Shown: positions 9,654 through 63,225 of the stretch, piece after piece
Position numbering within the stretch: the first letter of the stretch is position 1
Layout: each line of letters opens with the position of its first letter
Source: Actinokineospora auranticolor
GTDB lineage: Bacteria; Actinomycetota; Actinomycetes; Mycobacteriales; Pseudonocardiaceae
Length of the DNA stretch: 64,000 bases
Assembly (NCBI RefSeq): GCF_002934265.1
Contig: NZ_PTIX01000004.1
Coordinates: 372,001-436,000, forward strand
Direction of reading: 5' to 3'
Translations under genes and position numbers: made by a program
Notes under the pieces: model-generated
What the model was told of the DNA's origin: nothing
Seen by the model: the letters and a program-made list of their open reading frames with translations, nothing else
Database searches by the model: none

Positions 9654-9681
9654 TGTGGATGGATCCGGCCCATGTGGATAA
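9654..9681 (-). repeat. DnaA-box-like pair, copy A
   Basis: Read on the minus strand: TTATCCACA (9681-9673, the exact E. coli DnaA-box consensus), a 10-base spacer TGGGCCGGAT, then CCATCCACA (9662-9654). The same box-10-box layout recurs at 13879, 47926 and 63198, always between genes. It lies between the helicase gene and the terminator of the nitroreductase gene. Confidence 0.7.
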
Positions 9682-9683
9682 AA

Positions 9684-9722
9684 CCTGCCTCGCGCGAACG
9701 CGCACCATCCGCGCGAGGCAGG
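9684..9722 (-). terminator. Terminator of the nitroreductase gene
   Basis: A perfect 13-bp stem: CCTGCCTCGCGCG (9684-9696) with CGCGCGAGGCAGG (9710-9722) around a 13-base loop. It lies 58 bp past the stop of the leftward nitroreductase gene and is followed, in that direction, by TTTTATCC. The short T-run makes an intrinsic terminator likely. Confidence 0.8.
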
Positions 9723-9780
9723 ACCCCGGTTGCGGATACCGGGGTTCCGACGGGGGAGCGGTGGCTCCCCTGCCGGAGTC

Positions 9781-10467
9781 CTAGAAGGTCACCAGGACCT
9801 GGTCGAGGTCCTTGCGCACCAACCGTGGCACGGTGGCGTCGTCGGCCGGGTAACCGACCGGGATCACCGCGAACGCCTTCTCGTTGCGGGGGCGCTCCAA
9901 GACCTCGGAGAGGAACTTCATCGGGCTCGGGGTGTGCGTGAGCGCAGCCAACCCGGATAGGTGCAGCGCGGTCAAGAGCATGCCGACGGCGATACCGACC
10001 GATTCGTCGACGTAGTAGTGCTTGTGCTGCTCACCGTTGTCGTCGAGGTAGAACCGCTGTTCGAACACGACGATCAGGTAGGGAGCGTCCGTCAGGTGCG
10101 GCTTGTTGTGGTCCGTCCCTAGCGGTCGCAACGCCGACAGCCACTCGTCGCCGAGTCGGCCAGCGTAGGAGATCTGCTCCTCGTTCTCGGCTTCCGCGCG
10201 GATGCGGGCTCGGATGTCCGGGTCCTTGACCAGCACGAACGTCCACGGCTGCTGGTGAGCGCCGGACGGGGCAGTGGCCGCTACCGCTATCGCATCGATC
10301 ACGACCTGCTCGGGCACGGGGTCGGTCGAGAAGGCACGCACGGTGCGCCGCTGGTCCATCTTGGTGCGCAGCTCCGCTGCCGCCTGCAGCGACTCCTCGG
10401 CCGTCACCTTGGTGGGGCGGTACGGCACGGGGTCGTACGGCTGATCGTGGATCGGTATCCAAGCCAT
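9781..10467 (-). CDS. Nitroreductase-family (iodotyrosine-deiodinase-like) flavoprotein
   Basis: A predicted FMN-dependent oxidoreductase of 228 residues. The N-terminal basic motif QRRTVRAFSTDPVP with ATAPSGAHQQPWTF and the C-terminal VIPVGYPADDATVPRL are typical of the IYD/BluB-like branch of the nitroreductase fold. The substrate cannot be told from sequence. The ATG at 10467 was chosen because GGGAG lies about 11 bases upstream; a further ATG at 10506 is possible. It is transcribed away from nadD and ends at the strong hairpin at 9684-9722. Confidence 0.88.
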   Translation of the reverse strand: MAWIPIHDQPYDPVPYRPTKVTAEESLQAAAELRTKMDQRRTVRAFSTDPVPEQVVIDAIAVAATAPSGAHQQPWTFVLVKDPDIRARIRAEAENEEQISYAGRLGDEWLSALRPLGTDHNKPHLTDAPYLIVVFEQRFYLDDNGEQHKHYYVDESVGIAVGMLLTALHLSGLAALTHTPSPMKFLSEVLERPRNEKAFAVIPVGYPADDATVPRLVRKDLDQVLVTF

Positions 10468-10618
10468 GTCCGGCAGTCTCCCGGTCGAAAAGCCGCTGGT
10501 GGTCATACCGATCCGGTCATAGGACCCGGCTAATGACCCGAACGGTCGTGTCCGGAAGTCGTTCACGCGAGATGTCTCCCACACAACCACGCGTGTCAAC
10601 ACCCCGTAGGCTCGCCCT

Positions 10619-11209
10619 ATGGCGCGTCGGATAGGGATCATGGGCGGCACCTTCGACCCGGTGCACCATGGACACCTCGTAGCGGCCAGTGAGGTGCAGG
10701 CGCGCTTCGAACTCGACGAGGTCATCTTCGTGCCGACCGGCGTCCCGTGGCAGAAAGGTGGCCGGGAGGTAAGCGCGGCGGAAGACCGCTATCTGATGAC
10801 CGTAGTGGCCACGGCGTCCAATCCCCGCTTTTCCGTCAGCCGGGCGGACATAGACCGCGAAGGCGTTACGTACACGGTCGACACTCTGCGTGACCTGGGT
10901 ACCCGATATCCGGACGCCGATCTGTTCTTCATCACCGGCGCCGACGCCTTGGAACAGATCCTGTCCTGGCATCGCGCCGACGAACTGTTCACCCTCGCCC
11001 ACTTCGTGGGTGTCACCCGGCCGGGATACGACCTCGCCGCCACCCACCTGCCGTCCGGCAGCGTGAGCCTGGTCGAGGTGCCCGCGCTGGCCATCTCCTC
11101 CACCGACTGCCGCGCGCGCGTGGCCGCGGGTCAGCCGGTCTGGTACCTGGTCCCCGACGGTGTCGTGCAGTACATCTCCAAGAGGCGCCTGTACGCCGCC
11201 GAGGATTAA
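10619..11209 (+). CDS. nadD: Nicotinate-nucleotide adenylyltransferase
   Basis: Transfers AMP from ATP to nicotinate mononucleotide in NAD synthesis. The 196 residues begin [19 protein letters not shown], carrying the GTFDPxHxGH nucleotidyltransferase motif, and end with the [10 protein letters not shown] region corresponding to the ISSTxIR motif. Length is normal. It starts a block with rsfS and the phosphatase gene that is conserved in the same order in mycobacteria. Confidence 0.97.
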
Positions 11210-11270
11210 CCGGCGCGCGCATACCGGTACCCTCGAGTGGTTAGCCCTGGCGATACCAACGAGGAGTGAC

Positions 11271-11654
11271 GTGGCAGCGACGGACGTGGCACGCAACCTG
11301 GCCCTGGTCGCGGCCGCCGCGGCCGCCGACAAGAAGGCGGGAGACGTGATCGTGCTGGACGTCTCCGACCAACTCGTCATCACCGACTGCTTCGTGATCG
11401 CCTCCGCGGCGAACGAGCGGCAGGTCGGCGCGATCGTGGAGAGCGTCGAGGACCGGATGCGCGAGGCGGGGACCAAGCCGGTGCGCCGCGAGGGCGCCCG
11501 CGAGGGCCGCTGGGTGCTGCTGGACTTCGTCGACGTGGTGGTGCACATCCAGCACGCCGAGGAGCGCTCGTTCTACGGCCTGGAGCGGCTGTGGAAGGAC
11601 TGCCCGCGCATCGACTTCGTGGCGGACCATCCCGCCGACGAGGACGACGAGTGA
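11271..11654 (+). CDS. rsfS: Ribosomal silencing factor RsfS
   Basis: A 127-residue protein that binds L14 on the 50S subunit and blocks subunit joining under starvation. Recognised by DVIVLDVSDQLVITDCFVIAS, the REGAREGRWVLLDFVDVVVHI core and the HAEERSFYGLERLW end. The GTG at 11271 was chosen because GAGGAG sits 5 bases upstream; longer frames upstream lack a site. The stop overlaps the next start in a GTGA, so translation is probably coupled. Confidence 0.96.
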   Translation: MAATDVARNLALVAAAAAADKKAGDVIVLDVSDQLVITDCFVIASAANERQVGAIVESVEDRMREAGTKPVRREGAREGRWVLLDFVDVVVHIQHAEERSFYGLERLWKDCPRIDFVADHPADEDDE

Positions 11655-12265
11655 CCCTGCGCAGGCTGGTCCTGTGGCGCCACGGCGAGACCGACTACAA
11701 CGCCAGTGGCCGGATGCAGGGGCACATCGACTCGAACCTGACCGAGGTCGGCTGGAACCAGGCCAGGTTCGCGGTGCCCGCGCTGGCCAGGTTCGCTGCG
11801 GACCTCATCGTGGCCTCCGACCTGCGCCGGGCCACCGACACGGCCACGGTGTTCAGCGAGGCCACCGGGGTGCCGCTGCGGTTCGACAAGCGTTTGCGCG
11901 AGACCAACCTGGGGTCCTGGCAGGGCAAGACCGGTGCCGAGATCGACGCCGAGTGGCCGGGGGGGCGCGCGGAGTGGCAGACCGACGCCACGTGGACACC
12001 GCCTGGCGGTGAGTCGCGCGTGGAGGTCGCGGCCCGGGCGACCGAGGTCGTCGCGGGCCTCGACGAGGGTGTGGACGGGACGGCCGTGCTGTGCGCGCAC
12101 GGCGGCCTGATCACGGCGCTGACCGGCAGCCTCCTGGAGCTCCCGGTGGCCAACTGGTGGCAGCTCGGCGGCATCAGCAACTGCCACTGGACGGTGCTGG
12201 CGCGCCGGGAGACCAGCGGGCTCGCGTGGCGCCTGATCGCCTACAACGCGGGCATCACCGGCTAG
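11651..12265 (+). CDS. gpgP: Histidine phosphatase, GpgP-like (glucosyl-3-phosphoglycerate phosphatase)
   Basis: A 204-residue member of the histidine phosphatase superfamily. The phosphate-binding RHG motif is at the start (VLWRHGETDYNASGRMQGH) and the second catalytic His is in VLCAHGGLITAL. The position directly after nadD-rsfS matches Rv2419c of M. tuberculosis, known as GpgP, which removes phosphate from glucosyl-3-phosphoglycerate in methylglucose lipopolysaccharide synthesis. The substrate here is inferred from that synteny; a general phosphoglycerate-mutase-like phosphatase is the alternative. The GTG overlaps the rsfS stop. Confidence 0.85.
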   Translation: MTLRRLVLWRHGETDYNASGRMQGHIDSNLTEVGWNQARFAVPALARFAADLIVASDLRRATDTATVFSEATGVPLRFDKRLRETNLGSWQGKTGAEIDAEWPGGRAEWQTDATWTPPGGESRVEVAARATEVVAGLDEGVDGTAVLCAHGGLITALTGSLLELPVANWWQLGGISNCHWTVLARRETSGLAWRLIAYNAGITG

Positions 12266-12268
12266 CCG

Positions 12269-13006
12269 ATGGCGCCGACCGTCCTGCTGTTCGGCGACTC
12301 GCTGAGCTTCCACGGCCCCGACGGTCCCCATCCCTCCGACGACCCCCGGATCTGGCCGAACCTCGCGATGTCCGCTGTCGGCGGGCAGGTCGAGTTGTTC
12401 GCCGGTTTCGGTTGGACCGCGCGCGACGCCTACTGGTCGCTGGTGGGCGACCCGCGCGTGTGGACTGTCGTGCCGCATGTGGACATCCTTGTGCTCGCGG
12501 TGGGCGGCATGGATACGCTTCCCTCGCCGCTGCCGACCTACCTGCGCCTTGGTATCCGCTATCTGCGGCCGGACGGTCTGCGTCGGCGCGTGCGCGAGGC
12601 GTACCTTGCCGCGCAACCGTGGTTGGCCCGTGTGACCCGTGGGCGTCCGGTGGCGCTGTCCGCGCCTCTTAGCGTGCGCTACCTCAACGACATAGTCGTG
12701 GCAATCCGCGCACTACGGCCGGATTTGCCCGTAGTGGTCATGTTGCCTTCGGTGCACCGTGCTGCCGCGTACGGCAATGTGCACACGGGGCGTGAGCGCG
12801 CGGTGGCGATGGTGAGTGCTTGGGCGGCGCGCAGCGGGGTGAACGTCTTCGACGTCGCCGAGGTGGTGCGCGCGCACGTGCTCGGTGGCCACGGCAACCC
12901 GGACGGCATGCACTGGGGGTGGGACGGGCACCGGCTGGTCGGGGCCGCCATGGCCGACCTGCTGGTCCAGCGCGGCCTTGTAGTAGACCCGGCGGCGGAC
13001 AACTAG
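12269..13006 (+). CDS. SGNH/GDSL-type acyl-transferring protein, OctT-like
   Basis: 245 residues with an SGNH fold: nucleophile Ser in VLLFGDSLSFHG at the N-terminus, and the C-terminal Asp/His pair in NPDGMHWGWDGHRL. It starts 3 bp after gpgP. In M. tuberculosis the same slot is Rv2418c, described as OctT, an octanoyltransferase that acylates glucosylglycerate at the start of methylglucose lipopolysaccharide synthesis. Sequence, length and place agree, so I call it OctT-like; activity on this acceptor is inference. There is no signal peptide, so it acts in the cytoplasm. Confidence 0.8.
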   Translation: MAPTVLLFGDSLSFHGPDGPHPSDDPRIWPNLAMSAVGGQVELFAGFGWTARDAYWSLVGDPRVWTVVPHVDILVLAVGGMDTLPSPLPTYLRLGIRYLRPDGLRRRVREAYLAAQPWLARVTRGRPVALSAPLSVRYLNDIVVAIRALRPDLPVVVMLPSVHRAAAYGNVHTGRERAVAMVSAWAARSGVNVFDVAEVVRAHVLGGHGNPDGMHWGWDGHRLVGAAMADLLVQRGLVVDPAADN

Positions 13007-13017
13007 GCTTCTGCCAC

Positions 13018-13866
13018 GTGCCGATCGCTGTGGTTACCGACTCGACCGCCTACCTGCCGGAGGGCGTCGCCGACCGGCATGCGATCCGCGTCATCCCGCT
13101 GCTGGTCCGCGTGGACGGCAGAGAAGGGCGCGACGGCATCGACATGGGGCCTGTCCAACTGGCCCAGGCGCTCCAGGAGCGGCGGATGGTGACCACCTCG
13201 CGGCCCAACCCCGCCGAGTTCGCCGCGGCGTACCAGCGGACCCTCGACGGGGGCGCCGACGGGATCCTGTCCGTCCACCTGTCCCGCGACCTGTCCGGCA
13301 CCTGGGAGTCCGCGCGGCTCGCGGCCGAGGAGTGCGGGCCCGACCTGGTGCGCGTGGTCGATTCCCGGACCACCGGCATGGGACTGGGGTTCGCCGCGCT
13401 GCGCGCCGCCGCGGTGGCCGCCGCGGGTGCCGGGGGAGCGGAGGTCGAGGCCGCGGCGGTCCGGGCGGCGAGCACCACGACCAGCTTCTTCATGGTCGAG
13501 ACCCTGGAGTACCTGCGCCGAGGTGGCCGGATCGGTGCCGCGGCGGCCCTGCTGGGCACCGCGCTGGCGATGAAACCGATCCTGCACGTCCGGGATGGGC
13601 AGATCGTGCCGCTGGAGAAGGTGCGCACCACCGGGCGGGCGCTGGGGCGGCTCGTCGACCTGGCCGTGGGCGAGGCGGCGGGTGGACCGGTGGATCTCGC
13701 CGTGCACCACCTCGGTGCGCCGGAACGGGCAGCGGAACTCGCGGAACGGCTCACCGAGCGGGTTCCGGGGACGCGCGAGTGCGTGATCGCCGAGTTGGGT
13801 GCGGCAATTGGCGCACATACCGGGCCTGGCGTTCTTGGCGTCGTAGTGGCGCCAAAAACGCCGTAA
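13018..13866 (+). CDS. DegV family fatty-acid-binding protein
   Basis: 282 residues. The start PIAVVTDSTAYLP, the TSRPNPAEF motif, HLSRDLSGTWESAR and the C-terminal GAAIGAHTGPGVLGVV segment define the DegV fold, which binds a single fatty acid and can act with fatty-acid kinase. The GTG at 13018 was chosen since it directly begins the family pattern. It sits 12 bp after the OctT-like gene and corresponds to Rv2417c in the same order, so it belongs to the same transcription unit. Confidence 0.93.
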   Translation: MPIAVVTDSTAYLPEGVADRHAIRVIPLLVRVDGREGRDGIDMGPVQLAQALQERRMVTTSRPNPAEFAAAYQRTLDGGADGILSVHLSRDLSGTWESARLAAEECGPDLVRVVDSRTTGMGLGFAALRAAAVAAAGAGGAEVEAAAVRAASTTTSFFMVETLEYLRRGGRIGAAAALLGTALAMKPILHVRDGQIVPLEKVRTTGRALGRLVDLAVGEAAGGPVDLAVHHLGAPERAAELAERLTERVPGTRECVIAELGAAIGAHTGPGVLGVVVAPKTP

Positions 13867-13878
13867 GGTGGACCGGAT

Positions 13879-13906
13879 TTATCCACATAGGCCGAAGTTG
13901 TCCACA
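13879..13906 (+). repeat. DnaA-box-like pair, copy B
   Basis: TTATCCACA (13879-13887, exact E. coli DnaA box), a 10-base spacer TAGGCCGAAG, then TTGTCCACA (13898-13906, the Streptomyces DnaA-box form). It lies between degV and comEA, starting 13 bp after the degV stop. This is the best-matched of the four pairs in the window. Confidence 0.8.
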
Positions 13907-13957
13907 GGAATCCTGCTGCTTCCCCGGTTTCTTTGACCTGGCCCTAGCTTCGGTGTC

Positions 13958-14698
13958 ATGGCAGAGAAAAACCGCACCGATCAGATGGACGCCGTCCTCG
14001 CCCGCCTCGCCGCCGTCGCGGGCAGGCCCTGGGACCGAACCGAGGAAGAGCCGCCCACGCCCACTCCTGGGCGGCGTGGGCGAAGGCGGCGGCAGTCCGA
14101 CCCGCCGACAGCGGCGGACCACAGTGGACAAAACCGGCGCGCGCGGACGCCGATCACCCTGGTCCTGGGGATCATCGCCGCCGCCGTGGTGATCACCGGT
14201 GCCGTCGCCCTGTCGGACACGCCGACCAAGGAGGTGCCCCCGAACCTGGCCGCGGCGACCGTCGAGCAGCCGGTGCCCAGCGCGGTCCCGGTGACCGTCG
14301 ACGTCGTGGGCAAGGTCCACGAGCCCGGCCTGCGCACGTTGCCGGAGGGCTCCCGGGTCGACGACGCCCTGCGGGCCAGCGGCGGAGCACTGCCCGGGAC
14401 CGACCTCACGACACTGAACCTGGCCCGGAAACTCGTGGATGGGGAACAGCTCGCGGTCGGTGTCCCGGCACCGGTGGCGGAAGTCGTCGAAGCGAAGCCG
14501 GGCGGCGTCGTCAACCTCAACACCGCGTCCCTGCCCCTGCTCGACACCCTTCCCGGAGTCGGGTCGGTCACCGCCCAACGCATCCTCGACTGGCGGGCCG
14601 AACACGGCGGGTTCACCCGGGTGGAACAGCTGCGCGAGATCGAAGGCATCGGCGGGGCCAAGTTCGAGAAGCTTCGCCAACTGGTCACCGTCCGATGA
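13958..14698 (+). CDS. comEA: ComEA-like helix-hairpin-helix DNA-binding membrane protein
   Basis: 246 residues: a basic cytoplasmic N-terminus (~1-68), one membrane helix (~69-88, TLVLGIIAAAVVITGAVAL), a SLBB domain (~109-170, VTVDVVGKVHEPGLRTLPEG) and a C-terminal double HhH domain (NLNTASLPLLDTLPGVGS, IEGIGGAKFEKLRQLV). ComEA binds incoming double-stranded DNA outside the membrane in competent bacteria. With comEC downstream it gives the DNA-uptake core, but no pilus or comF genes are in the window. Natural competence is therefore not shown. Confidence 0.95.
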   Translation: MAEKNRTDQMDAVLARLAAVAGRPWDRTEEEPPTPTPGRRGRRRRQSDPPTAADHSGQNRRARTPITLVLGIIAAAVVITGAVALSDTPTKEVPPNLAAATVEQPVPSAVPVTVDVVGKVHEPGLRTLPEGSRVDDALRASGGALPGTDLTTLNLARKLVDGEQLAVGVPAPVAEVVEAKPGGVVNLNTASLPLLDTLPGVGSVTAQRILDWRAEHGGFTRVEQLREIEGIGGAKFEKLRQLVTVR

Positions 14699-14939
14699 CT
14701 CGCGGAACCGCAACCTCGACACTCCCGCGTGGGTGTCCGCCCACGGGCTCGCTCGGCCATCCCGATGCCCGCGCGGCCGGGTCGGACTGGCGTGCTTCTC
14801 GAGTACGTCCTGCCCAGGCTGGGTATTTGGCCGGCGGCGGGTATCTCGGCGCTCGCCATGAGCGGTGGGGCTCGGATGATCGTCGGAGCGACTGCGGGCT
14901 TTCGTACCAGCGTTCGGATGATCGGCGGGACGCGGTCCG

Positions 14940-17384
14940 ATGAGAGGCCGCCTGCCGGGGACGATTCGGCGGATCGCGCGACGGGCTCCGGGCTTTGGGG
15001 AGGCACGGCGCTGGGCCCGAGTGCGTTCGTCGGAGTCGGATGCCGAGGCGGTGAGGCCGGCGCACGACTACCGATTGCTGGGAGGCGCGGCCGTGGTGTT
15101 CACGGCAGCGCTGTCGGGATTGTTGGTGCACTGGATCGCGGCAGTCGTCGTCGGTGCCGTTGCGGTGCTTGCCGGGGTGTTGTTGGCGCGTCGTCGTGTG
15201 GAGCCGTTGCGGATCTCGGCCGGGTGGCCGCTGGTCGTGTGCGGGGTGTTGGCGGTGTGGCCGGTGGCCACGCGGATGGAGGCCGCTGCCAGCGACCCGC
15301 TGCGGGAGGCGGCCGCGGCCGGGGCGGAGGTCGAGTTGCGGTTGGAGGTGAGTGAACGACCGAGGCGGGTGCGGAGTACGGGGTTCGGTGCGACGCCGTC
15401 CGGGGTGCGGACTGTCGTTGTGGCGGCCAACTCCGGTGATAGCCGGGTGCTCGTACTGGCGCCGGTCGACCGGTGGGCGGATGTCCTTCCTGGACAGGAG
15501 GTCGTCGCCAAAGGCACGGTGGCGCCCGCGGAAACCGGCTCGCTGACCGTCGCGGTGCTGCGTGTTCGTGGACCGCCGCTGTGGGCCGGGGAGGCACCGG
15601 GATGGCAGCGGGCCGCGCGAGCGTTGCGGATCGGTCTGCGGGAGGCGTCCGGGGTGCTCGACGACGAGCAGGCGGGGTTGCTGCCCGCGCTGGTGGTCGG
15701 GGACACCGACGGGATGGTTTCCGCGGTCGAGGACGAGTTCAAGGCGAGCGGCATGACCCACCTGCTCGCGGTCAGCGGCGCGAACCTCGCGATCGTCTGC
15801 GTGGTGGTGCTGTACCTGCTGCGGCTGATGCAGGTGGGTCCACGCGGGTCGGCGGTCGGCGCCCTGGTGGCGTTGGTGGGATTCGTGGTGCTCGCCGGGC
15901 CGGAGCCGAGTGTGCTGCGTGCCGGCGTGATGGGTGCCGTTGGTCTCCTGGCGCTCGCGTTGGGGCGTGAGCGGTCCGCGATCCCCGCGTTGGCGGTGGC
16001 CGTGATCGGGCTCGTGGTCCACGACCCGGCGATGGCGGTCGACTTCGGGTTCGTGTTGTCCGTTCTGGCGACCGGTGCGCTGGTGCTGCTCGCACCGCGC
16101 TGGGTCGACGGGCTGGCGGCTCGACGGGTGCCGCGTGTCCTCGCCGAGGCGTTGGCGGTGCCCGCCGCCGCGCACCTCGCGACGGCACCGGTTGTCGCCG
16201 GGATGAGCGGTCAGGTGAGCCTCGTCGCGGTGGTGGCGAACCTGGTGGCGGCACCGGTGGTCGCGCCCGCGACAGTGCTCGGGTTGGTCGCCGCGTTGAT
16301 CGCTCCCTTGGCGCCGTGGGCCGCCGAGTGGGTGGTGCGGCTGGCGGGGCCGGAGGTCGACTGGCTCGTCCTCGTGGGCGGCACGGCCGCCTCGGTGCCC
16401 GGTGCCGTGCTCGACTGGCCGGGCGGCTGGTGGGGTGGGCTGCTGCTGGCGGCGGTGCTCGCCGGTCTGGTGTTGGCCATCCGACTGAGCCGGGTCCGGG
16501 TCGTGGTCGCCTTGGTGTTGGCCGGTGTGCTGCTGGTCTTGGTGCCTGTTCGGGTGTTGGCGCCGAGGTGGCCGCCCGCCGGCTGGGCGGCCGTGGCCTG
16601 CGACGTCGGCCAAGGCGACGCGCTGGTTCTGTCCACTGCGGACAGTGGGCGGGTGGTGCTGGTCGACACCGGGCCCGATCCGGTGCCGGTGCGGGACTGC
16701 CTGGACCGGTTGGCCGTCGACCGGGTGGCGTTGGTGGTGCTGAGCCACCTGCACGCCGATCACGTGGGCGGGCTGGCGGGTGTGCTCGCGACCCGGGCCG
16801 TCGGCGCGGTCGCCGTCGGGCCGGGGAGGTCGCCGGGGTGGGCTTGGCGGCAGGTTCGTCAGGAGGTGGCGGAAGCCGGGGTTCCACTGCTCCGGTTGAC
16901 GTCAGGGCAACGGATGGTGTGGCCCGGGCTGGTGCTGGACGTGCTGGCGCCGCCGGGCGGAGAGGAGGAAGGAGAGCGGGGCGCGGACGCGGCCCAGGAC
17001 GGAACGGCGATCAACAACCGGTCCGTGGTCCTGCGGGCCACGACCCGGGCGGGTCGGCTGCTGCTGACCGGCGACGTGGAGCTGGCGGCACAGGCGGACC
17101 TGCTGGCGGCGGGCGTGGATCTGACCGCCGACGTGGTCAAGGTGCCGCACCACGGCTCGCGGTACACGTCGCCGAGGTTCTTGGGCGCGGTTCGGGCGAC
17201 GGTGGCGTTGGTCAGTGTCGGAGCGGGCAACCGCTACGGCCACCCGAGCCCCCGGACCCTCGCCGCCGTCGGTCGGGGAACCCTGGTGGCCCGCACCGAC
17301 CACGACGGTGACAGCGCCATCACCGCTGCCGACGGCAAGCCGGTCCTGGTCACCCGGGGAAGCCCGCGCGGGCCACCCCGCTGA
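14940..17384 (+). CDS. comEC: ComEC/Rec2 DNA-uptake channel protein
   Basis: An 814-residue membrane protein. Hydrophobic segments begin at ~45 (LLGGAAVVFTAALSGLLVHW). The central competence domain contains GMTHLLAVSGANLAIVC and repeated helices to ~540. The C-terminal metallo-beta-lactamase domain (~545-814) has VACDVGQGDALVL, the metal motif SHLHADHVGG, and VVKVPHHGSRYTS. In competent species it carries single-stranded DNA across the membrane. The start is uncertain: ATG 14940 has only a weak ribosome site, and GTGs at 15021 and 15051 are possible. comEA ends 241 bp upstream. Confidence 0.93.
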   Translation: MRGRLPGTIRRIARRAPGFGEARRWARVRSSESDAEAVRPAHDYRLLGGAAVVFTAALSGLLVHWIAAVVVGAVAVLAGVLLARRRVEPLRISAGWPLVVCGVLAVWPVATRMEAAASDPLREAAAAGAEVELRLEVSERPRRVRSTGFGATPSGVRTVVVAANSGDSRVLVLAPVDRWADVLPGQEVVAKGTVAPAETGSLTVAVLRVRGPPLWAGEAPGWQRAARALRIGLREASGVLDDEQAGLLPALVVGDTDGMVSAVEDEFKASGMTHLLAVSGANLAIVCVVVLYLLRLMQVGPRGSAVGALVALVGFVVLAGPEPSVLRAGVMGAVGLLALALGRERSAIPALAVAVIGLVVHDPAMAVDFGFVLSVLATGALVLLAPRWVDGLAARRVPRVLAEALAVPAAAHLATAPVVAGMSGQVSLVAVVANLVAAPVVAPATVLGLVAALIAPLAPWAAEWVVRLAGPEVDWLVLVGGTAASVPGAVLDWPGGWWGGLLLAAVLAGLVLAIRLSRVRVVVALVLAGVLLVLVPVRVLAPRWPPAGWAAVACDVGQGDALVLSTADSGRVVLVDTGPDPVPVRDCLDRLAVDRVALVVLSHLHADHVGGLAGVLATRAVGAVAVGPGRSPGWAWRQVRQEVAEAGVPLLRLTSGQRMVWPGLVLDVLAPPGGEEEGERGADAAQDGTAINNRSVVLRATTRAGRLLLTGDVELAAQADLLAAGVDLTADVVKVPHHGSRYTSPRFLGAVRATVALVSVGAGNRYGHPSPRTLAAVGRGTLVARTDHDGDSAITAADGKPVLVTRGSPRGPPR

Positions 17385-17512
17385 TGGCCGCTGTCGTTGC
17401 GCCCCAACACAAACGCCCCGACCGGGTGGTCGAGGCGTGGGGTGGGGCTGTCCGTGGTTGGGCGGGTGTGGAGCACCCGCCCAACCTGCGGAAGCAGTCC
17501 GGTTCCGGGCGC

Positions 17513-18778: not shown

Positions 18779-18791
18779 CGCGAGGCATCTC

Positions 18792-27067: not shown

Positions 27068-27086
27068 TGTGGACAACTTCCGACGA
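27068..27086 (-). repeat. Degenerate half of the DnaA-box-like pair
   Basis: On the minus strand TTGTCCACA (27076-27068) is preceded by the spacer-like TCGTCGGAAG (27086-27077), which matches 7 of 10 bases of the spacer in copy B. The other box is not recognisable. It lies in the divergent gap between the DUF3224 and YjbR-like genes. Confidence 0.45.
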
Positions 27087-47925: not shown

Positions 47926-47953
47926 TTGTCCACATGCGCCGAGGTTGCCCACC
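47926..47953 (+). repeat. DnaA-box-like pair, copy C
   Basis: TTGTCCACA (47926-47934), spacer TGCGCCGAGG, then TTGCCCACC (47945-47953). It lies 57 bp after the hemW stop. GTGGATCGTGCTCGG precedes it (from ~47906) and GACCACTC follows, both shared with copy D at 63198, so the homologous unit is longer than the pair. Confidence 0.75.
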
Positions 47954-47995: not shown

Positions 47996-48678
47996 GGCTT
48001 ATTCACGACCCATGCTGACCGCCCGAAGTGAGATGGCGGCGGCCCGTTTGAGAGAGTTCAGTTGCCGCACCTAGTTCTCAAACAAACGGACCGCCTTTAT
48101 GTATCAAACCGCCGATCTCGCTCGGGGTCGCATCGAGGAATTATGCTCTCTCGCTCATTGTGCGACCGGAGGGTCGGTTCGTCGGTGGCCACCAATTGTG
48201 GGGTTGTATCGCTCGGTGGTGGTGACGTTGGCGCTGCTGCCGTGCTGGTCATGGGCCTCGCGCCCGGAGTTGTCCTCGGGGAACACCGCACGACCGGGCT
48301 CAACGTCCAGGTCGTGTGCACGCTGGCGGGCGACTGAGATGGGTATCCGATCCCATGTCGGGATCTCGGAACGACATCGTCGGCCTGAAGGCCTCACGAA
48401 CTCTCGACGGTCGCGACCCCAGTACCTGACTCGGCCACAAGGGCTACATCGACAGCGGCATCCTGACCCCCATCAGGAAACCTCGAAACAGGAAGCAGTC
48501 CGACCGAGAAAGAGAGTTCAACCGATACCACAACTCCATCCGAGTCGTGGTCGAACGCACTGTTGCCCAACTCAAGACCCGGCGCGTTCTCCACACCGAC
48601 TATCGACGCCCTGTCGACACCTTCACCGAGACCATCTCTGCGGTCGTCAGCCTCTATTCCTATGCCGCTGAATAAGCC
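47996..48678 (+). mobile_element. Remnant of an IS5-family insertion sequence
   Basis: The ends are inverted repeats: GGCTTATTCA at 47996-48005 and TGAATAAGCC at 48669-48678. Between them is a broken transposase gene. At 683 bp it is shorter than a complete element of this type (usually near 900 bp), so an internal deletion is likely. The sequence is less GC-rich than its surroundings. It sits inside a copy of the DnaA-pair/stem-loop repeat unit. No clear target-site duplication was seen. Confidence 0.85.
48099..48675 (+). pseudogene. DDE transposase (DDE_Tnp_4, IS5 type), inactivated
   Basis: The start MYQTADLARGRIEELCSLAH runs in frame to about 48240 (RSVVVTLALL). After that the frame shifts to EHRTTGLNVQVVCTLAGD with a stop at ~48337, and then to GHKGYIDSGILTPIRKPR and VVERTVAQLKTRRVLHTDYR, ending with TAA at 48673-48675. 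These blocks match the order of an IS5-type transposase. The HTH and first catalytic Asp region seem deleted, and at least two frameshifts separate the parts. It cannot make an active enzyme. Confidence 0.88.
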
Positions 48679-55172: not shown

Positions 55173-55215
55173 ACCCCCCCACGGTGCGATGGGTGGCGGA
55201 ACCAGCGTGGTCCGG

Positions 55216-55290: not shown

Positions 55291-55318
55291 AGCGCGCGGA
55301 GCGCGTTGGGGGAGTGGG

Positions 55319-55660
55319 CTAGCGGCCGAAGGCTGTTAGTTGTTCGCCGCCTAGTACGTGTAGGTGGGCGTGGAAGACGGTTCGGCAGGCGTCGTCGCCG
55401 GTGTTGAAGACGAAGCGGTAGCCGGACTCCAGGATTCCCTCGGTTTTTGCTACTTCTGTGCCTGCGAGCAGGACCGATGCCAGTAGGTCGGGGTTGCCTG
55501 CCAGGTCTTTGGCGTCCTGGTGGTGTTCTCGGGGGACTACGAGGACGTGAACCTTGGCTTGCGGGTTGATGTCGTGGAAGGCGTAGACCGTGTCGTTCTC
55601 GTAGACGGGGGTGGACGGGATCTCCTTGGCCACGATCTTGCAGAAGAGGCAGTCGCTCAT
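55319..55660 (-). CDS. HIT-family (histidine triad) nucleotide-binding protein
   Basis: 113 residues. DCLFCKIVAKEIPSTPVYEN with DINPQAKVHVLVVPREHHQD and the triad VFHAHLHVLGGEQ identify an HINT-type nucleotide phosphoramidase. The ATG at 55660 begins MSDCLFCK. It is divergent from phoH across ~120 bp, a common actinobacterial arrangement. Confidence 0.96.
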   Translation of the reverse strand: MSDCLFCKIVAKEIPSTPVYENDTVYAFHDINPQAKVHVLVVPREHHQDAKDLAGNPDLLASVLLAGTEVAKTEGILESGYRFVFNTGDDACRTVFHAHLHVLGGEQLTAFGR

Positions 55661-55782
55661 GGGTCGCACCCTAGCGAGGAGTTGTGGCTTGGTTTCTCCG
55701 GTGCGTTGGGGGTGGTGGGAGGGCTAGCATCGAGGCGTACTGGTGGTGGAGCGCGGGGCGCAGAAGGTAGGGCCGAGAGCAC

Positions 55783-56838
<1,056 letters not shown>

Positions 56839-56884
56839 GGCGGCCCTGCGCGACGGTGCGGACGGTGTCGAGGACAATGGTCCG

Positions 56885-57424
56885 GTGAGTATCGAGATCG
56901 CCAACGAGTCGGGGGTGGCGGTCGACGAGGCGTCGATCGTCGCGGCGGCCCGGTTCGCGTTGGACCGGATGAACGTCAGCAAGCTCGCCGAGCTGTCCGT
57001 GCTGCTCGTCGAGCTGGACGTGATGGCCGACCTGCACGAGCGGTGGATGGACCTGCCCGGTCCCACCGACGTCATGGCTTTCCCCATGGACGAGCTCGAC
57101 TCCGCCCGCCGCCCCGACGCGTCGGAGTCCGGGCCCGCCCTGCTCGGCGACATCGTGCTCTGCCCGGCCTTCGCCAAGGACCAGGCGCGCACCGCCGGGC
57201 ACAGCCTGATCGACGAGCTGCACCTGCTGACCGTGCACGGCGTGCTGCACCTGCTCGGCTACGACCACGCCGAACCCGCCGAGGAACGCGAGATGTTCGC
57301 GTTGCAGAAGCGCATCCTCGCCGACTTCCGCACCGCCGCCGCCGACGCCAAGCGCCGCGCCGCGCAGCGCGTCGAGGACGACAAGCTGCTCGGCGCCGTC
57401 GGCCTCGCCGACCCCGAGGACTGA
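56885..57424 (+). CDS. ybeY: Endoribonuclease YbeY (rRNA maturation)
   Basis: 179 residues. The metal site HxxxHxxxxxH is visible in [16 protein letters not shown], and the core has LNxLxR-type features replaced by [20 protein letters not shown]. YbeY matures the 16S rRNA 3' end and takes part in 70S quality control. GTG at 56885; the following corC-like gene starts 6 bp after the stop. It has an Arg/Lys-rich extra tail ([12 protein letters not shown]). Confidence 0.96.
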
Positions 57425-57430
57425 CCCGCG

Positions 57431-58777
57431 GTGCCCGCGGACTCGGTCGGCCTGCTCGTCGTCGCCATCCTGCTCGTGCTCGCCGCCGGGGTCTTCGCCG
57501 CCGCCGACGCCTCGCTGTCGGCGGTGTCCAAGGCCCGCGTGGAAGGGCTCGTGCGCGCCGGGCGCACCGGGGCCAAGCAGCTGCTGGCCGTGGTCACCGA
57601 ACGACCCCGGCACATCAACCTGCTGCTCCTGCTGCGGCTGAGCTGCGAACTGGCCGCCACCGTGCTGGTCACCACCGTCTGCGCCCGCGCCATCGAACCC
57701 GGCTGGCTGGCCGGCTTGGTCGCCGCGCTGGGCATGATCGTGGTGTCGTACGTCCTCGTCGGCGTCGGACCGCGCACCATCGGCCGCCAGCACCCCTACG
57801 GCGTCGGCCTCATCGCCGCGGGCCCGGTGCGGGTGCTCGGCTCGGTGCTCGGCCCGCTGTCGCGGTTCCTGATCCTGGTCGGCAACGCCATCACCCCCGG
57901 CCGCGGCTTCCGCGAGGGCCCGTTCTCCTCCGAGGTCGAGCTGCGCGAGCTGGTCGACCTGGCGCAGGAGCGCGGCGTGGTCGACGCCGACGAGCGCGAG
58001 ATGATCCACTCGGTGTTCGAGCTGCGCGGCACCATCGCCCGCGAGGTCATGGTCCCGCGCACCGAGATGGTGTGGATCGAGCAGACCAAGTCCGTCCGCC
58101 AGGCCCTCGCGCTGTCCCTGCGCACCGGCTACACCCGCATCCCGGTGATCGGCGAGAGCGTCGACGACATCGTCGGCGTGGTCAACCTCAAGGACCTCGT
58201 GCGGTCCGGGCTCGACCGCGGCACCACCCCCACCTCGGTGGCCGTCGTGATGGTCGCCGCGGCGTTCGTGCCCGACACCAAGCGGCTCGACGACCTGCTG
58301 CGCGAGATGCAGGTGTCGAAGAACCACATCGCCATCGCCGTCGACGAGTACGGCGGCACCGCCGGGCTGCTCACCATCGAGGACATCCTCGAGGAGATCG
58401 TCGGCGAGATCACCGACGAGTCCGACACCGACGACCGACCCCCGGTCGAGCACCTCGACGACGGCGCCGTGCGGGTCAGCTCCCGGCTGCCGGTGGAGGA
58501 CCTCGGCGCGCTGTTCGGGCTCCAACTGGAGGGCCAGGACGTGGAGACCGTCGGCGGCCTGCTCGCCCAGCGGCTGGGACGTGTGCCACTGCCGGGTGCG
58601 GAAGCGGAGATCACCGGGCTACGGTTCCGGGCCGAGGGCGGCAAGGACAACCGCGGCCGGGTGCGCATCACCTCCGTGGTCGTGCGGCCCGTGGCGACCC
58701 CCGGGACCGACGGCGACGGGGAGGACGGCGAACGGGCCGTCGCGGAGCAGTGGGAGAGGAGCGGTGGGCGTGGCTGA
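57431..58777 (+). CDS. Hemolysin-family (CNNM/CorC-like) membrane protein
   Basis: 448 residues: a DUF21/CNNM membrane domain (~5-180, GLLVVAILLVLAAGVFAAA, ATVLVTTVCARAIE), two CBS domains (~200-325, MVPRTEMVWIEQTKS, NHIAIAVDEYGGTAGLLTIE) and a C-terminal CorC/HlyC domain (GALFGLQLEGQDVETVGGLL). Homologues act in Mg or Co homeostasis. The ending overlaps the next gene by 8 bases, so it forms one operon with ybeY. Confidence 0.93.
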   Translation: MPADSVGLLVVAILLVLAAGVFAAADASLSAVSKARVEGLVRAGRTGAKQLLAVVTERPRHINLLLLLRLSCELAATVLVTTVCARAIEPGWLAGLVAALGMIVVSYVLVGVGPRTIGRQHPYGVGLIAAGPVRVLGSVLGPLSRFLILVGNAITPGRGFREGPFSSEVELRELVDLAQERGVVDADEREMIHSVFELRGTIAREVMVPRTEMVWIEQTKSVRQALALSLRTGYTRIPVIGESVDDIVGVVNLKDLVRSGLDRGTTPTSVAVVMVAAAFVPDTKRLDDLLREMQVSKNHIAIAVDEYGGTAGLLTIEDILEEIVGEITDESDTDDRPPVEHLDDGAVRVSSRLPVEDLGALFGLQLEGQDVETVGGLLAQRLGRVPLPGAEAEITGLRFRAEGGKDNRGRVRITSVVVRPVATPGTDGDGEDGERAVAEQWERSGGRG

Positions 58778-59105
58778 GCTCGACCCGGAGGACGCGAAGA
58801 TCGTCACCCTGGCCCGGTCCAGCCGGGCGCGGACCGGGGCCGCCGAGGGCGCCGCCGTGCGCGACACCGACGGCCGCACCTACACCGCGGCCACCGTCGC
58901 GCTGCCGTCGCTCAAGCTGACCGCGTTGCAGGCCGCCGTGGCCGCCGCCGTGGCCAGCGGCGCCGAGGGGCTGGAGGCCGCCGCGGTCGTCACCGGCGCC
59001 GACGCCGTCGACGCCGACTCGCTGGCCGCCGTGCGCGACCTGACCGCCGACGCGCCCGTGCTGCGCGCGGACACCGCCGGAACCGTCGTCGACGTGCTCC
59101 GGTGA
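58770..59105 (+). CDS. Cytidine-deaminase-like protein lacking catalytic residues
   Basis: 111 residues. The order and length follow the cytidine deaminase fold (VRDTDGRTYTAATVALPSLK, LTALQAAVAAAVASGAEGLE). However, the CAE motif of true deaminases is replaced by LTALQAA and no PCxxC is present, so the zinc and catalytic Glu are missing. The slot between corC and era matches the Rv2365c position in mycobacteria. A structural or regulatory role is likely. GTG 58770 was chosen because AGGAG lies 8 bases upstream. Confidence 0.72.
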   Translation: MAELDPEDAKIVTLARSSRARTGAAEGAAVRDTDGRTYTAATVALPSLKLTALQAAVAAAVASGAEGLEAAAVVTGADAVDADSLAAVRDLTADAPVLRADTAGTVVDVLR

Positions 59106-59443
59106 GCCTGCGCGTCACCGTCTGCCGGGACTGCTGCTGCGGCACCGTCCGCAAGCACCCCACGGTCAACCACTACCGCCAGTTGAACCGCCTGCGCGAG
59201 ATCGCCGCCCGGCACGGCGGCACCGTCCGCGTGGCCGAGTGCCTGGACACCTGCGAGACCTCCAACGTGGTCGTCGTGCAGGCCAGGGGCGCCAAGCCGG
59301 TGTACCTGGGTTTCGTGCTCGACGACGCCGTCGTGGACGACATCGACGCCTGGCTGACCGCCGGTGGACCGGGCGTCGCACCGCTGCCGGAGACCCTCGA
59401 ACTGAACCGCGTGCAAGCACCGGGGACGGCCGGGAGACAATGA
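59102..59443 (+). CDS. Thioredoxin-like (2Fe-2S) ferredoxin
   Basis: 113 residues. The start VTVCRDCCCGTVRKHP gives three or four closely spaced Cys and VAECLDTCETSNVVVV gives two more, in the pattern of the thioredoxin-like [2Fe-2S] ferredoxins. It should bind one [2Fe-2S] cluster for electron transfer; the partner is unknown. Its GTG overlaps the preceding stop in a GTGA. Confidence 0.8.
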   Translation: MSLRVTVCRDCCCGTVRKHPTVNHYRQLNRLREIAARHGGTVRVAECLDTCETSNVVVVQARGAKPVYLGFVLDDAVVDDIDAWLTAGGPGVAPLPETLELNRVQAPGTAGRQ

Positions 59444-59447
59444 GCCG

Positions 59448-60356
59448 GTGAGCAGCTCCACCGATGGCCACCGTTCCGGGTTCGCCTGCTTCGTCGGCAG
59501 GCCCAACGCGGGCAAGTCCACGCTCACCAACGCGCTCGTGGGCAGCAAGGTCGCCATCACCTCGAACAAACCGCAAACCACCCGACACGCGATCCGCGGC
59601 ATCGTGCACCGCGACGACGCCCAACTGGTGATCGTCGACACCCCGGGCCTGCACCGCCCCCGCACGCTGCTGGGCCAACGCCTCAACGACATCGTCCGGG
59701 AGACGTGGTCGGAGGTCGACGTGGTCGGCCTCTGCGTGCCCGCCGACCAGAAGGTCGGGCCCGGCGACCGGTTCATCGCCGCCGAGCTGGCCAAGGTCGC
59801 CAAGCGCACCCCGGTCATCGGCATCGTCACCAAGACCGACCTGGTAGGGCCCGAGCAGGTGGCCGAGCAGCTCGTGGCGCTGCAGGACGTCATGGAGTTC
59901 GCCGAGCTGGTGCCGGTGTCGGCCGTCGACGGGTTCCAGGTGTCGACCCTGGCCGACCTGCTGGTCACCCGGCTGCCCGAGGGCCCGCAGCTCTACCCGG
60001 GCGGCGAGCTGACCGACGAGCCCGAGGCCACCCTGGTCGCCGAGCTGGTCCGCGAGGCCGCGCTGGAGGGCGTGCGCGACGAGCTGCCGCACTCCATCGC
60101 GGTCACCATCGAGGAGATGAACCCGCGCGAGGGCCGCGACGACATGATCGACGTCTACGCGGTGCTGTACGTGGAGCGGCCCAGCCAGAAGGGCATCGTG
60201 CTCGGGCACCGGGGCGAGCGGCTCAAGCAGGTCGGCTCCGCGGCGCGCAAGCAGATCGAGGGGCTGCTCGGCAGCCGCGTGTACCTCGACCTGCACGTGA
60301 AGGTCGCCAAGGACTGGCAGCGCGACCCCAAGCAGCTGCGCCGGCTCGGCTTCTGA
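59448..60356 (+). CDS. era: GTPase Era
   Basis: 302 residues. G domain with FVGRPNAGKSTLTNALVG, DTPGLHRPRT and VTKTDLVG, then a KH domain (~215-295, GIVLGHRGERLKQVGSAARK). Era assembles the 30S subunit near the 16S rRNA 3' end, which fits its neighbours ybeY and recO. It starts 4 bp after the ferredoxin gene stop. Confidence 0.98.
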   Translation: MSSSTDGHRSGFACFVGRPNAGKSTLTNALVGSKVAITSNKPQTTRHAIRGIVHRDDAQLVIVDTPGLHRPRTLLGQRLNDIVRETWSEVDVVGLCVPADQKVGPGDRFIAAELAKVAKRTPVIGIVTKTDLVGPEQVAEQLVALQDVMEFAELVPVSAVDGFQVSTLADLLVTRLPEGPQLYPGGELTDEPEATLVAELVREAALEGVRDELPHSIAVTIEEMNPREGRDDMIDVYAVLYVERPSQKGIVLGHRGERLKQVGSAARKQIEGLLGSRVYLDLHVKVAKDWQRDPKQLRRLGF

Positions 60357-60383
60357 GCACCCGTGTCGTGGGACAATGCGCGG

Positions 60384-61151
60384 ATGAGCCTGTACCGCGA
60401 CACCGGTGTCGTGCTGCGCGTGCAGAAGCTCGGTGAGGCCGACCGGATCATCACCCTGATCACCCAGAAGCACGGCAAGGTCCGCGCGGTGGCCAAGGGG
60501 GTGCGCCGCACGACCTCGCGGCTCGGTGCCCGGGTGGAGCCGTTCGCGCACGTCGACGTGCAGTTCTACACCGGGCGCACGCTTGACGTGATCACCCAGG
60601 TGCAGACGCTGGACGCGTTCGGCGCGGGCATCGTGGGCGACTACCAGCGCTACACCGCGGGCTGCGCGATCCTGGAGACCGCGGACCGGATGTCCGCCGA
60701 AGAGGGCGAACCCGTCCTCCGGCTCTACCTGCTCGTGGCGGGCGCGCTGCGCGCCTTGGCGGACGGGGAGCGCGACGCGTCCCTCGTGCTCGACGCGTTC
60801 CTCTTGCGCGCGTTGGCTTTCGCGGGTTGGTCACCGGCTCTTACCGAATGCGCGCGGTGTGGCGATCCAGGACCCCACCGCGCGTTCAACGTCCACGCGG
60901 GTGGGTCGGTGTGCCTGCGGTGCAAGCCACCTGGGTCGGCGAGTCCGCCGTACGAGGTCTTGCACCTGATGGACTCGTTGGCGAATGGTCGGTGGGACAG
61001 CGCGGAACGCGCGACCGACTCGACCCGGCGCGAGGCCAGCGGGTTGGTGGCGGCGCTGCTGCAGTGGCACCTGGAACGCCAACTGCGATCGCTTCCCCTG
61101 GTCGAGCGACGCCCGTTCGTGGGACGCCAGTCGGCCGGCGAAGCCGAGTAG
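60384..61151 (+). CDS. recO: DNA repair protein RecO
   Basis: 255 residues. An N-terminal OB-fold (LYRDTGVVLRVQKLGEADRI, KVRAVAKGVRRTTSRLGARV) is followed by a helical domain and a zinc finger (ECARCGDPGPH, VCLRCKPPG). RecO loads RecA with RecR in recombination repair. The ATG at 60384 starts MSLYRDTGVV. It lies 27 bp after era in the conserved era-recO-uppS order. Confidence 0.97.
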   Translation: MSLYRDTGVVLRVQKLGEADRIITLITQKHGKVRAVAKGVRRTTSRLGARVEPFAHVDVQFYTGRTLDVITQVQTLDAFGAGIVGDYQRYTAGCAILETADRMSAEEGEPVLRLYLLVAGALRALADGERDASLVLDAFLLRALAFAGWSPALTECARCGDPGPHRAFNVHAGGSVCLRCKPPGSASPPYEVLHLMDSLANGRWDSAERATDSTRREASGLVAALLQWHLERQLRSLPLVERRPFVGRQSAGEAE

Positions 61152-61248
61152 TCACCGTTGCCCTGGTGGGACGGCGATTTCGGGGGGCGGCGGTCGGGTT
61201 AGTAGTGTCGTCGAGTCTTAGGTCCCCGGTGTGTGAAGGAGTTGTGCG

Positions 61249-62100
61249 GTGCTGCGTAGGCGGCGGACCCAAAGCAGGCGTGACGCCGGGCGGCCGATCT
61301 CACCCCCGGAACCGCACCCCTCCGGTGCCCGTCCACCCGCGATCCCGCGGGAACTGGTGCCCCAGCACGTCGCCATCGTCATGGATGGCAACGGCCGGTG
61401 GGCCAACCAGCGCGGTCTGACCAGGGTCGAGGGCCACAAGCGCGGCGAGGCCCAGGTCGTCGAGGCGGCCCGCGGCTGCATCGAGATCGGCGTGAAGTGG
61501 CTGTCGCTGTACGCCTTCTCCACGGAGAACTGGCGGCGCAGCCCCGAGGAAGTCCGCTTCCTGATGAACTTCTCCCGCGACGTCATCCGCCACCGCACGG
61601 TCGAGCTGGACGAGCTGGGCGTGCGCATGCACTGGGCGGGCCGCCGCCCCAAGCTCTGGCGCAGCGTGATCAGCGAGCTGGAGGTGGCCGAGCAGATCAC
61701 CAAGGACAACGACCTGCTGCACCTGGCCCTGTGCGTCAACTACGGCGGCCGCGCCGAGATCGGCGACGCCGCCCGCGAGATCGCCCGGCTGGCCGCCGCG
61801 GGCAAGATCAACCCGGAGAAGGTCGACGAGCGCACGCTGGCCCGGCACATGTACCACCCCGAGATGCCGGACGTGGACCTGTTCATCCGTCCGTCGGGGG
61901 AGCAGCGCACGTCCAACTTCCTGCTGTGGCAGTCGGCCTACGCCGAGCTGGTGTTCCAGGACCACCTGTGGCCCGACTTCGACCGGGTCCACCTGTGGGA
62001 GGCCATCGAGACCTACGCCCGCCGCGACCGCCGCTTCGGCAAGGCGGCGGACTCCGCGGACGTGGCCGCCCGCCTCAAGGACGAGGAGAACGACGAATGA
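61249..62100 (+). CDS. uppS: Isoprenyl (undecaprenyl-type) diphosphate synthase
   Basis: 283 residues of the cis-prenyltransferase family: [20 protein letters not shown] (metal Asp and P-loop-like), [13 protein letters not shown] and [20 protein letters not shown]. It makes the polyprenyl carrier lipid for cell-wall synthesis; chain length is not predictable. The GTG has GGAG upstream. Its stop overlaps the following gene in an ATGA. Confidence 0.97.
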
Positions 62101-62507
62101 CCGTCGAGCACGCGCTGCTCACCAAGGCCCGCGAGGCCCTGGAGTCCTTCCACGACGTCGCGGTCGACACCGACGGCGCCCTGACCTTCCGCCACGCGGA
62201 CGTCCCCTGCGCCGTGCAGGCGATGGAGTTGGTGGAGGGCCTCACCGTCCTCACCCTGACGTGCGTGGTCGCGTGGGACCTGCCCGAGGACCCGTCCCTG
62301 GCCGTCTCCGCCGCCGAGCGCGCGGGGCAGGGCCTGTTCGGCACGCTGGGCGTCGTCCACACCGAACGCGGGATGGACGTGACCCTCCGCTACACCTTCC
62401 CGGCCGACGGCCTCACCGCCGCCGCCCTGGGCACCCTGCTCATGCTCGTGGTCTCCACCGCGTCCCAACTCCGCACGGAACTCCTGGGCCAACCAACCGC
62501 CACCTAA
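62097..62507 (+). CDS. Conserved-looking protein after uppS, YbjN-like
   Basis: 136 residues. It starts [20 protein letters not shown] and continues with alternating beta and hydrophobic segments ([32 protein letters not shown]). The pattern recalls YbjN/type-III-chaperone-like proteins, but I cannot assign a family. Translation is coupled to uppS by the ATGA overlap. No motifs with a catalytic look. Confidence 0.7.
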
Positions 62508-62660
62508 GCCTCCTCGCACGACCTGCCTGCTGGGTGACTCCTTCGACCGCGTCACGATCGACCCCGACAACCATCCGCGCACCAGGCCGAACGGGCGTCC
62601 ACCAGCGCCTCTGACCACGTCGTGTGGAAACTGTCCGACCCGCATCGACCCGGTCCACCC

Positions 62661-63060
62661 AAGCCGTTCCGCCACATCGTCCCGGCCAGCCCGGGGCTGG
62701 GCTGTGGCAATCGGCATTGGTCACCGCCTGCGCGGGCGAGATCCGCCGCGGCCGCTTGGCCGCTGGGCTCTCGCACCTGCTCTGGTGGGCCGGGACCCAA
62801 GCCGTTCCGTGGCATTGCCTCGGCCGCCCCGGGGCAGTGCTGTGGCAATCGGCATTGCTCGCCGCCTGCGCGGGCGAGATCCGCCGCGGCCGCTTGGCCG
62901 CTGGGCTCTCGCACCCGCTCTGGCGAGCCGGGACCCAAGCCGTTTCGCCGCATCGCCTCGGCCGGCCCGGGGCGGTGCTGTGGCAAGCGGCATTGGTCGC
63001 CGCCCGCCCGAGATCGCCGCTACCGCATCGGCCCCTGGGCTCCGCCTCCGCTCTGGCGGG
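62661..63060. repeat. 138-bp tandem repeat, about three copies
   Basis: Units begin AAGCCGTT at 62661, 62799 and 62937 (exactly 138 apart). The first two are nearly identical over the part GGCATTG...GCCTGCGCGGGCGAGATC...CTGGGCTCTCGCACC; the third has decayed after ~70 bases and fades near 63060. The length is a multiple of three, so open frames appear in several phases, but none has a start, ribosome site or family match. Confidence 0.88.
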
Positions 63061-63197
63061 CCGGTTGCCGTACTGCCGCTGCCGAGGGACTTGGTCTTGC
63101 GATTCGCGCACTCCGCGCGTCAGATCGAGCGGGCGGTCTCCCACCGGCTCCTCCGAACCCCCGTTGTGGATCTTGCTCGGCTCGCCGGGGAGCGGAC

Positions 63198-63225
63198 TTG
63201 TCCACATAGGCCGGAGTTGTCCACC
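63198..63225 (+). repeat. DnaA-box-like pair, copy D
   Basis: TTGTCCACA (63198-63206), spacer TAGGCCGGAG, then TTGTCCACC (63217-63225). TTGTGGATCTTGCTCGG precedes it at ~63172 and GACCACTC follows, both shared with copy C. The stem-loop repeat copy 2 starts 42 bases after it. Confidence 0.78.

Follow-up and report, generated by a model that had tools for sequence, protein, structure and literature searches.

DnaA-box pairs at a fixed distance from competence genes in Actinokineospora auranticolor and other actinomycetes, a candidate operator

DnaA is a known transcription factor that activates sda in Bacillus subtilis (PMC4447404; this and the other papers are cited from excerpts). DnaA-regulated promoters, such as those with double boxes in Escherichia coli and that of sda in B. 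subtilis, carry the 9-mer TTRTCCACA in direct-order pairs upstream of genes. The same letters, order and location are found in the element analysed here, a pair of DnaA-box-like 9-mers (box 1 and box 2) that occurs four times in a stretch of 64,000 nucleotides (nt) from Actinokineospora auranticolor (positions 372,001 to 436,000 of NZ_PTIX01000004.1; the whole stretch is termed the window). However, the gap between the boxes is 10 bp here, and 8-9 bp in other cases, instead of 2-3 bp, the targets are DNA-uptake genes, and DnaA is a candidate reader. The datA and DARS sites and DnaA-box clusters likewise have DnaA boxes outside oriC, whereas here two boxes are linked in position to a promoter and to the start of a gene instead of forming a cluster. 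The PafBC-type promoters with the RecA-NDp element share a TANNNT -10 element and recA as a target with the present promoters, but the pair lies further upstream and also precedes promoters without that element. Competence operators (the ComK box, the CIN-box of SigX/ComX and CRP-S) resemble the pair in that one short site serves comEA/EC, DNA-processing, recA and pilus genes; their letters are different, and the site here has the letters of the DnaA box. Micrococcus luteus lacks those known competence regulators (PMC12849477). As judged from its placement and conservation, the pair is very probably an operator of actinomycete competence genes.

Placement of the pair upstream of comEA and other genes

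The comEA gene is present in 59/61 order-level relatives and in 92/98 class-level genomes, and the best 30 loci were kept at each level, with the A. auranticolor (home) genome in both. A box on the sense strand precedes comEA in 30/30 order-level and 23/30 class-level loci, compared with 2/30 on the antisense strand at either level; the class-level distance profile used 18/30 loci, with 12 dropped. The conserved box is TTGTCCACAG with a freer third base, and a weaker copy is usually located 18-19 nt further upstream. In all 30 order-level loci, box 2 (at least 6/9 letters) ends 50-54 nt upstream of an in-frame ATG or GTG, and TANNNT follows box 2 by 38-41 nt. A TTGACA-like -35 element (5/6) was found in just one of these 30 promoters, and the RecA-NDp element is not common to them (by eye). 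Many genes were named by eye. The start codons were picked partly by distance; thus, these counts are best judged against the window control from an independent set of named actinomycetes. This set consists of the best 80 of 441 comEA relatives, less one at a contig edge, and spans Streptomyces, Micromonospora, Salinispora, Nocardioides, Actinomadura, Kitasatospora, Pseudonocardia, Saccharothrix and others, the nearest named matches to the home comEA being from Saccharopolyspora and Saccharothrix. The sense box is present in 66/79 loci (antisense 5/79), and its end lies 49-55 nt upstream of an in-frame start in 50/79. The control windows of 19-25, 29-35, 39-45, 59-65 and 79-85 nt hold 0-8/79, and the window of 69-75 nt, which is the position of the upstream box, holds 34/79.

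A similar comparison was made for yraN, found in 60/61 order-level relatives. The box precedes yraN-comM on the sense strand in 27/30 loci kept and on the antisense strand in none. In the home genome, yraN is followed by the Mg-chelatase-type comM; dprA is commonly next in this gene order. In the DUF222 control family (30 loci kept, from 66/81 genomes with a match), the sense box was found in 3/30 and the antisense box in 4/30. DUF222/13E12 genes were accordingly rejected as members, with none in the home genome and the sense box no commoner than the antisense box in the 30 relatives. Two of the three sense boxes are located at 50-52 nt, so that single DUF222 copies may be members.

Further targets were found in 40 stretches of four family members (G151, G073, G131 and G104; G, L and C numbers denote genomes, loci and contigs of this analysis), which were picked from listed pair sites and hold 45 pairs with a gap of 10. 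The next gene was examined for 22 of these stretches, corresponding to 25 pairs, and a start codon lies 50-52 nt after box 2 in 13/25. By Pfam, these 13 genes are recA, three ComEA (SLBB and HhH), two yraN (UPF0102), two M23 peptidases, two DUF4192 and three without a family. Pairs at other distances precede yraN (L164), CpaB/SAF (L170), a PD-(D/E)XK nuclease (L163) and a polyprenyl synthase (L174). In G073, the pair is followed by Ssd/CpaE (TIGR03815), T2SSE, two T2SSF, TadE and Tad genes, which form a Tad-pilus operon; transformation of M. luteus requires two tad loci (PMC12849477). Across genomes, the site is thus common to several separate competence loci (comEA, yraN-comM, the Tad operon, recA and cpaB), and the gene that carries it varies from genome to genome. 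A MrfA-type DEAD helicase gene (DEAD, MZB, WHD_HRQ1; L323:7071-9479) adjoins the Tad-pilus operon of G073 in the opposite direction. Proteins without a Pfam or NCBIfam match recur downstream of the pair (L171, L172, L153 and L029; in G073, G151 and the home genome) and are AbiEi/DUF559-like by eye.

The four pairs of the window, which had been noticed in a sequence-only reading, are located with their surrounding features as follows.

7509..9602, minus strand: RecQ-family helicase gene (TIGR00614 above cut-off; Pfam DEAD, Helicase_C and RecQ_Zn_bind)
9609..9614, minus strand: candidate -10 hexamer TATCCA, read from the sequence, which departs from TANNNT
9654..9681, minus strand: box pair TTATCCACA-N10-CCATCCACA upstream of the RecQ-type helicase gene, with 51 nt from the end of box 2 to the GTG (L028)
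13879..13906, plus strand: box pair TTATCCACA-N10-TTGTCCACA, both boxes perfect, upstream of comEA, with 51 nt from box 2 to the start codon
13945..13950, plus strand: -10 hexamer TAGCTT, 38 nt downstream of box 2 (L002)
13958..14698, plus strand: comEA (SLBB and HHH_3; TIGR00426 barely over cut-off)
14940..17384, plus strand: comEC (Pfam Competence and Lactamase_B)
27068..27076, minus strand: single box TTGTCCACA followed by G, without a second box in the sequence and left out as a member
47926..47953, plus strand: degenerate pair TTGTCCACA-N10-TTGCCCACC, adjoining insertion sequence (IS)-like remnants (L003)
63198..63225, plus strand: box pair TTGTCCACA-N10-TTGTCCACC of a gene-less type-A element (L004)
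63265..63270, plus strand: -10 hexamer TACGCT, 39 nt downstream of box 2 (L004)
63278..63304, plus strand: type-A hairpin sequence AGGGGTTCCCC...GGGGACCCCT, located where the transcript is expected to start (19 genome matches, alignment of 17, fold of one type-A sequence)

All four pairs were confirmed, with box starts 19 nt apart in each, a perfect first box (TTATCCACA in two and TTGTCCACA in two) and a second box that is perfect once. The window holds a single doubly perfect pair, compared with 0/100 shuffles of the window that gave one. The supposed half copy near 27068 turned out to be a lone box TTGTCCACAG, with no second box found there. The pair at 47926 has neither TANNNT at 34-42 nt nor a gene at the usual distance, and has probably decayed; an IS-like remnant at 48062-48671 adjoins it (by eye). 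The C-terminus of the RecQ-family protein encoded at 7509-9602 resembles a ComF-type phosphoribosyltransferase by eye, and its matches to phosphoribosyl families are weak.

The home genome (8.43 Mb, 61 contigs) was searched for box-N10-box, the check proposed with the first description of the pairs. The relaxed 27-mer gave 6 matches and the search with up to 3 mismatches gave 38, and the reversed pattern gave none in either. All 38 sites were aligned on box 2, and coding frames of at least 70 amino acids with a GC content at third codon positions of at least 0.84 were considered. TANNNT begins 36-40 nt downstream of box 2 in 24/38 sites. A coding frame begins 40-65 nt after box 2 in 8/38, and a start at 50-52 nt is possible in all 8. 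The genes at these 8 sites are comEA, a RecQ-type and an Lhr-type helicase by family, a metallo-β-lactamase-fold protein, an ATP-binding cassette transporter, dapA and an S9-type peptidase by eye, and one gene with no family match (L029). Another 16/38 pairs precede a GC-rich stereotyped start without a gene (6 of type A and 10 of type B, assigned by short letter matches). Two home-genome pairs are 129 bp apart (C2:465854 and 465983). A GATCTTG-like motif lies ~30-40 nt upstream of box 1 at some home sites (L003, L004, L016 and L021) and also downstream of gene-less starts in G005 (L251, L255 and L257-L259), both by eye.

DnaA and other candidate readers of the pair

DnaA is the most likely reader because the letters of the pair equal the DnaA box; given the operator, it is probably the protein bound there, and a competence operator that is also read by DnaA has slightly better than an even chance on this sequence evidence. 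The original description of the 9-mers as DnaA boxes holds for their letters. TTGTCCACA is the high-affinity DnaA box of Streptomyces coelicolor and Mycobacterium tuberculosis (PMC4285127), and the oriC flanks of 29 relatives are partly alike: among 164 oriC boxes (at least 8/9) of 29 genomes, G precedes the box in 71% and follows it in 57%. The third base is also alike, with 32 G, 9 A, 6 C and 3 T in oriC and 22 G, 21 A, 6 C and 4 T in the named comEA set. A second DnaA-like protein was rejected as the reader; Bac_DnaA_C has a single match in the home genome and in 28/29 relatives, with two in G238.

The spacing of the boxes was analysed by scanning 120 family genomes for exact pairs with gaps of 2-32. 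Exact pairs were found in 106/120, many of the genomes having few or no pairs, and the reversed pattern was found in none. The gap tally covers 150 listed places, a part of the whole: the gap is 10 in 95, 8 in 9, 9 in 8 and 3 in 7, 12 and 21 in 5 each, 7, 11 and 13 in 3 each, and others in 12 places. An E. coli-like gap of 2-3 bp is thus rare, with gap 3 in 7/150 and gap 2 in 1/150 listed. Between gaps of 10 and 21 lies roughly one turn of the helix. The lineages with a gap of 7 or 8 (G003; G114 and G136) have few listed sites each.

Several observations weigh against an operator read by DnaA. G follows box 2 in 25/28 order-level comEA promoters versus 30/50 in oriC. The same-strand distances in oriC of the 29 relatives are 12 (8 cases), 20 (13 cases), 22 and 43, with none of 18 or 19; the distance of 12 matches the 2-3 bp gap of E. 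coli, and the absence of the pair distance of 18-19 counts against DnaA. The oriC comparison was therefore discarded as a decider between readers, since flanks and third base agree and the distances disagree. E. coli DnaA binds box pairs with a gap of 2-3 bp and tolerates the insertion of a base pair poorly (PMC11317965), whereas the usual gap here is 10. The gap depends on the lineage (7, 8, 9 or 10), and this is more in keeping with a regulator that changes than with the conserved DnaA. Mapping of mycobacterial DnaA gave five regions, and comEA is not among the mapped regions named in the excerpt of that paper (PMC7738170). In five Mycobacterium/Mycolicibacter comEA loci, the box is mostly away from its usual place, so that the mycobacterial mapping is weak evidence either way. 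In the home genome, recA and the Tad genes were not located, and 14/38 sites have neither a gene at the usual distance nor a gene-less start. These 14 include yraN-comM (L245, with the start codon further away), CpaB/SAF (L026), Tex (L017), a response regulator (L006, by eye) and sites adjoining IS-like sequence (L003, L014 and L021; by eye).

The same operator and regulon might instead be read by a dedicated competence regulator with a DnaA-box-like site, perhaps of the HTH_17 (excisionase) family like Mlut_14660, mutation of which derepresses com genes in M. luteus (PMC8467076). This alternative is possible but doubtful. The gap of 10 rather than 2-3 and its drift between lineages favour it, as does the altered com expression in M. 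luteus mutants of HTH_17-type genes and ClpXP (PMC8467076). The sharing of the 9-mer and its base preferences with the DnaA box would, however, be a coincidence for an unrelated protein, and the surroundings of cpaB in the home genome (L026), the one locus inspected for it, showed no HTH_17 gene. Direct repeats would suit a protein that binds head to tail, as BldC does.

Gene-less starts, repeats and titration

The type-A hairpin alone as a query gave 19 matches in the home genome, of which 18 were parsed (L043 was dropped by the pattern). In 16/18, box 2 (at least 8/9) lies 54-57 nt upstream of a fixed point in the hairpin. The mean pairwise identity of these 16 elements is 0.96 in box 2, 0.54 in box 1, 0.57 in the spacer, 0.49-0.53 in the middle part and 0.29-0.34 in the flanks. 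Of the two halves of the pair, box 2 is thus under the stronger constraint, and the spacer, which had been described as conserved, is only partially so and is freely variable in G151 (by eye). The stem is almost invariant in the type-A alignment of 17 sequences (L043 and L050 left out of 19). Folds as good as those of six start sequences were obtained in 10, 11, 82, 116, 150 and 181 of 200 shuffles. Since two of the six beat most shuffles and four do not, the starts are termed GC-rich and conserved, and the term hairpin is kept for type A. An Rfam scan of 14 start loci with E up to 1 gave no match. TTGACA lies between box 2 and the -10 in five gene-less elements of two same-genus genomes (G009: L058, L068, L077 and L083; G011: L078; by eye), supporting the reading of the part downstream of the pair as a promoter. 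The family members have gene-less starts of two kinds, represented by 15 G151 pairs and one G131 pair. GTCRGTG-N8-TANNNT, a PafBC-like (RecA-NDp) element, lies downstream of the pair at G151 recA and at 6/9 gene-less G151 sites checked. The sites with both elements are recA (L152) and gene-less sites including L148, L151, L155, L157 and L162; the combination at these sites would connect the pair with the response to DNA damage.

The gene-less starts raise the possibility of a spreading repeat like a miniature inverted-repeat transposable element, which carries a promoter and a hairpin and whose gene-linked cases are due to chance or capture. The 16 stereotyped home sites, the widely different copy numbers between species, the IS-like genes adjoining some copies (L014, L021 and L022; by eye) and the tandem copies ~190 bp apart in G016 and G028 are consistent with it. 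However, copying of whole units should leave spacer and flanks as alike as box 2, and in the 16 elements they are less so. Moreover, comEA and yraN retain the box while the transcript starts vary between genera, and the genes preceded by the pair are not the same from one genome to another. Such a repeat is thus very improbable, and the earlier suggestion of a generic repetitive element is not supported, also by the criterion of conservation inside versus outside the boxes that was given with it. The tandem pairs are located at G016:C14:82683 and 82876, G016:C15:68709 and 68901, and G028:C1:551561 and 551749. The datA- or DARS-like titration of DnaA proposed in the sequence-only reading, by sites or clusters without a role in transcription, is hardly credible: perfect boxes outside oriC are many in some genomes (38 in the home genome, 42 in G016 with another pattern and 68 in G151), but strand and distance to start codons and -10 elements are fixed, which titration does not need, and many genomes have few or no pairs.

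Proposed mechanism and its meaning for competence

From the placement of the pair relative to genes and -10 elements, we infer an upstream activator operator for DNA-uptake and recombination genes. Transcription would start at or next to the start codon, giving leaderless transcripts. In this case, the protein on the pair would be located at about -52 to -80, with its centre near -65. The bound protein would touch the RNA polymerase and aid the use of a promoter without a -35 element, and the whole competence set would thereby come on in concert. Less surely, DNA uptake may track the active DnaA left over from oriC, provided that DnaA is the bound protein. Many short transcripts with a GC-rich, partly hairpin-forming 5' stretch would also be driven by this switch in some genomes. 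In its widest form, the proposal makes DnaA, when not occupied at oriC, the master activator of competence throughout the class Actinomycetes, with control over the Tad pilus, ComEA/EC, ComM and RecA and, in certain species, over dozens of very small structured RNAs as well. This form is tentative and falls somewhat short of an even chance.

According to the excerpt of a January 2026 paper on M. luteus, the upstream competence signals and the regulatory cascade are still to be identified (PMC12849477). No report of this box upstream of competence genes was found among the matches listed in an open-access library without preprints. If the pair is the operator, it would give a first handle on the control of DNA uptake and recombination in actinomycetes. 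A 10-mer with a fixed position upstream of comEA, as found in most actinomycete loci of this analysis, lends itself to mutation, to use as a bait for its protein and to listing the regulon in other genomes. If DnaA reads the pair, replication control and DNA uptake would form one circuit, and if DnaA is the master activator, DNA uptake would be a response to the replication state.

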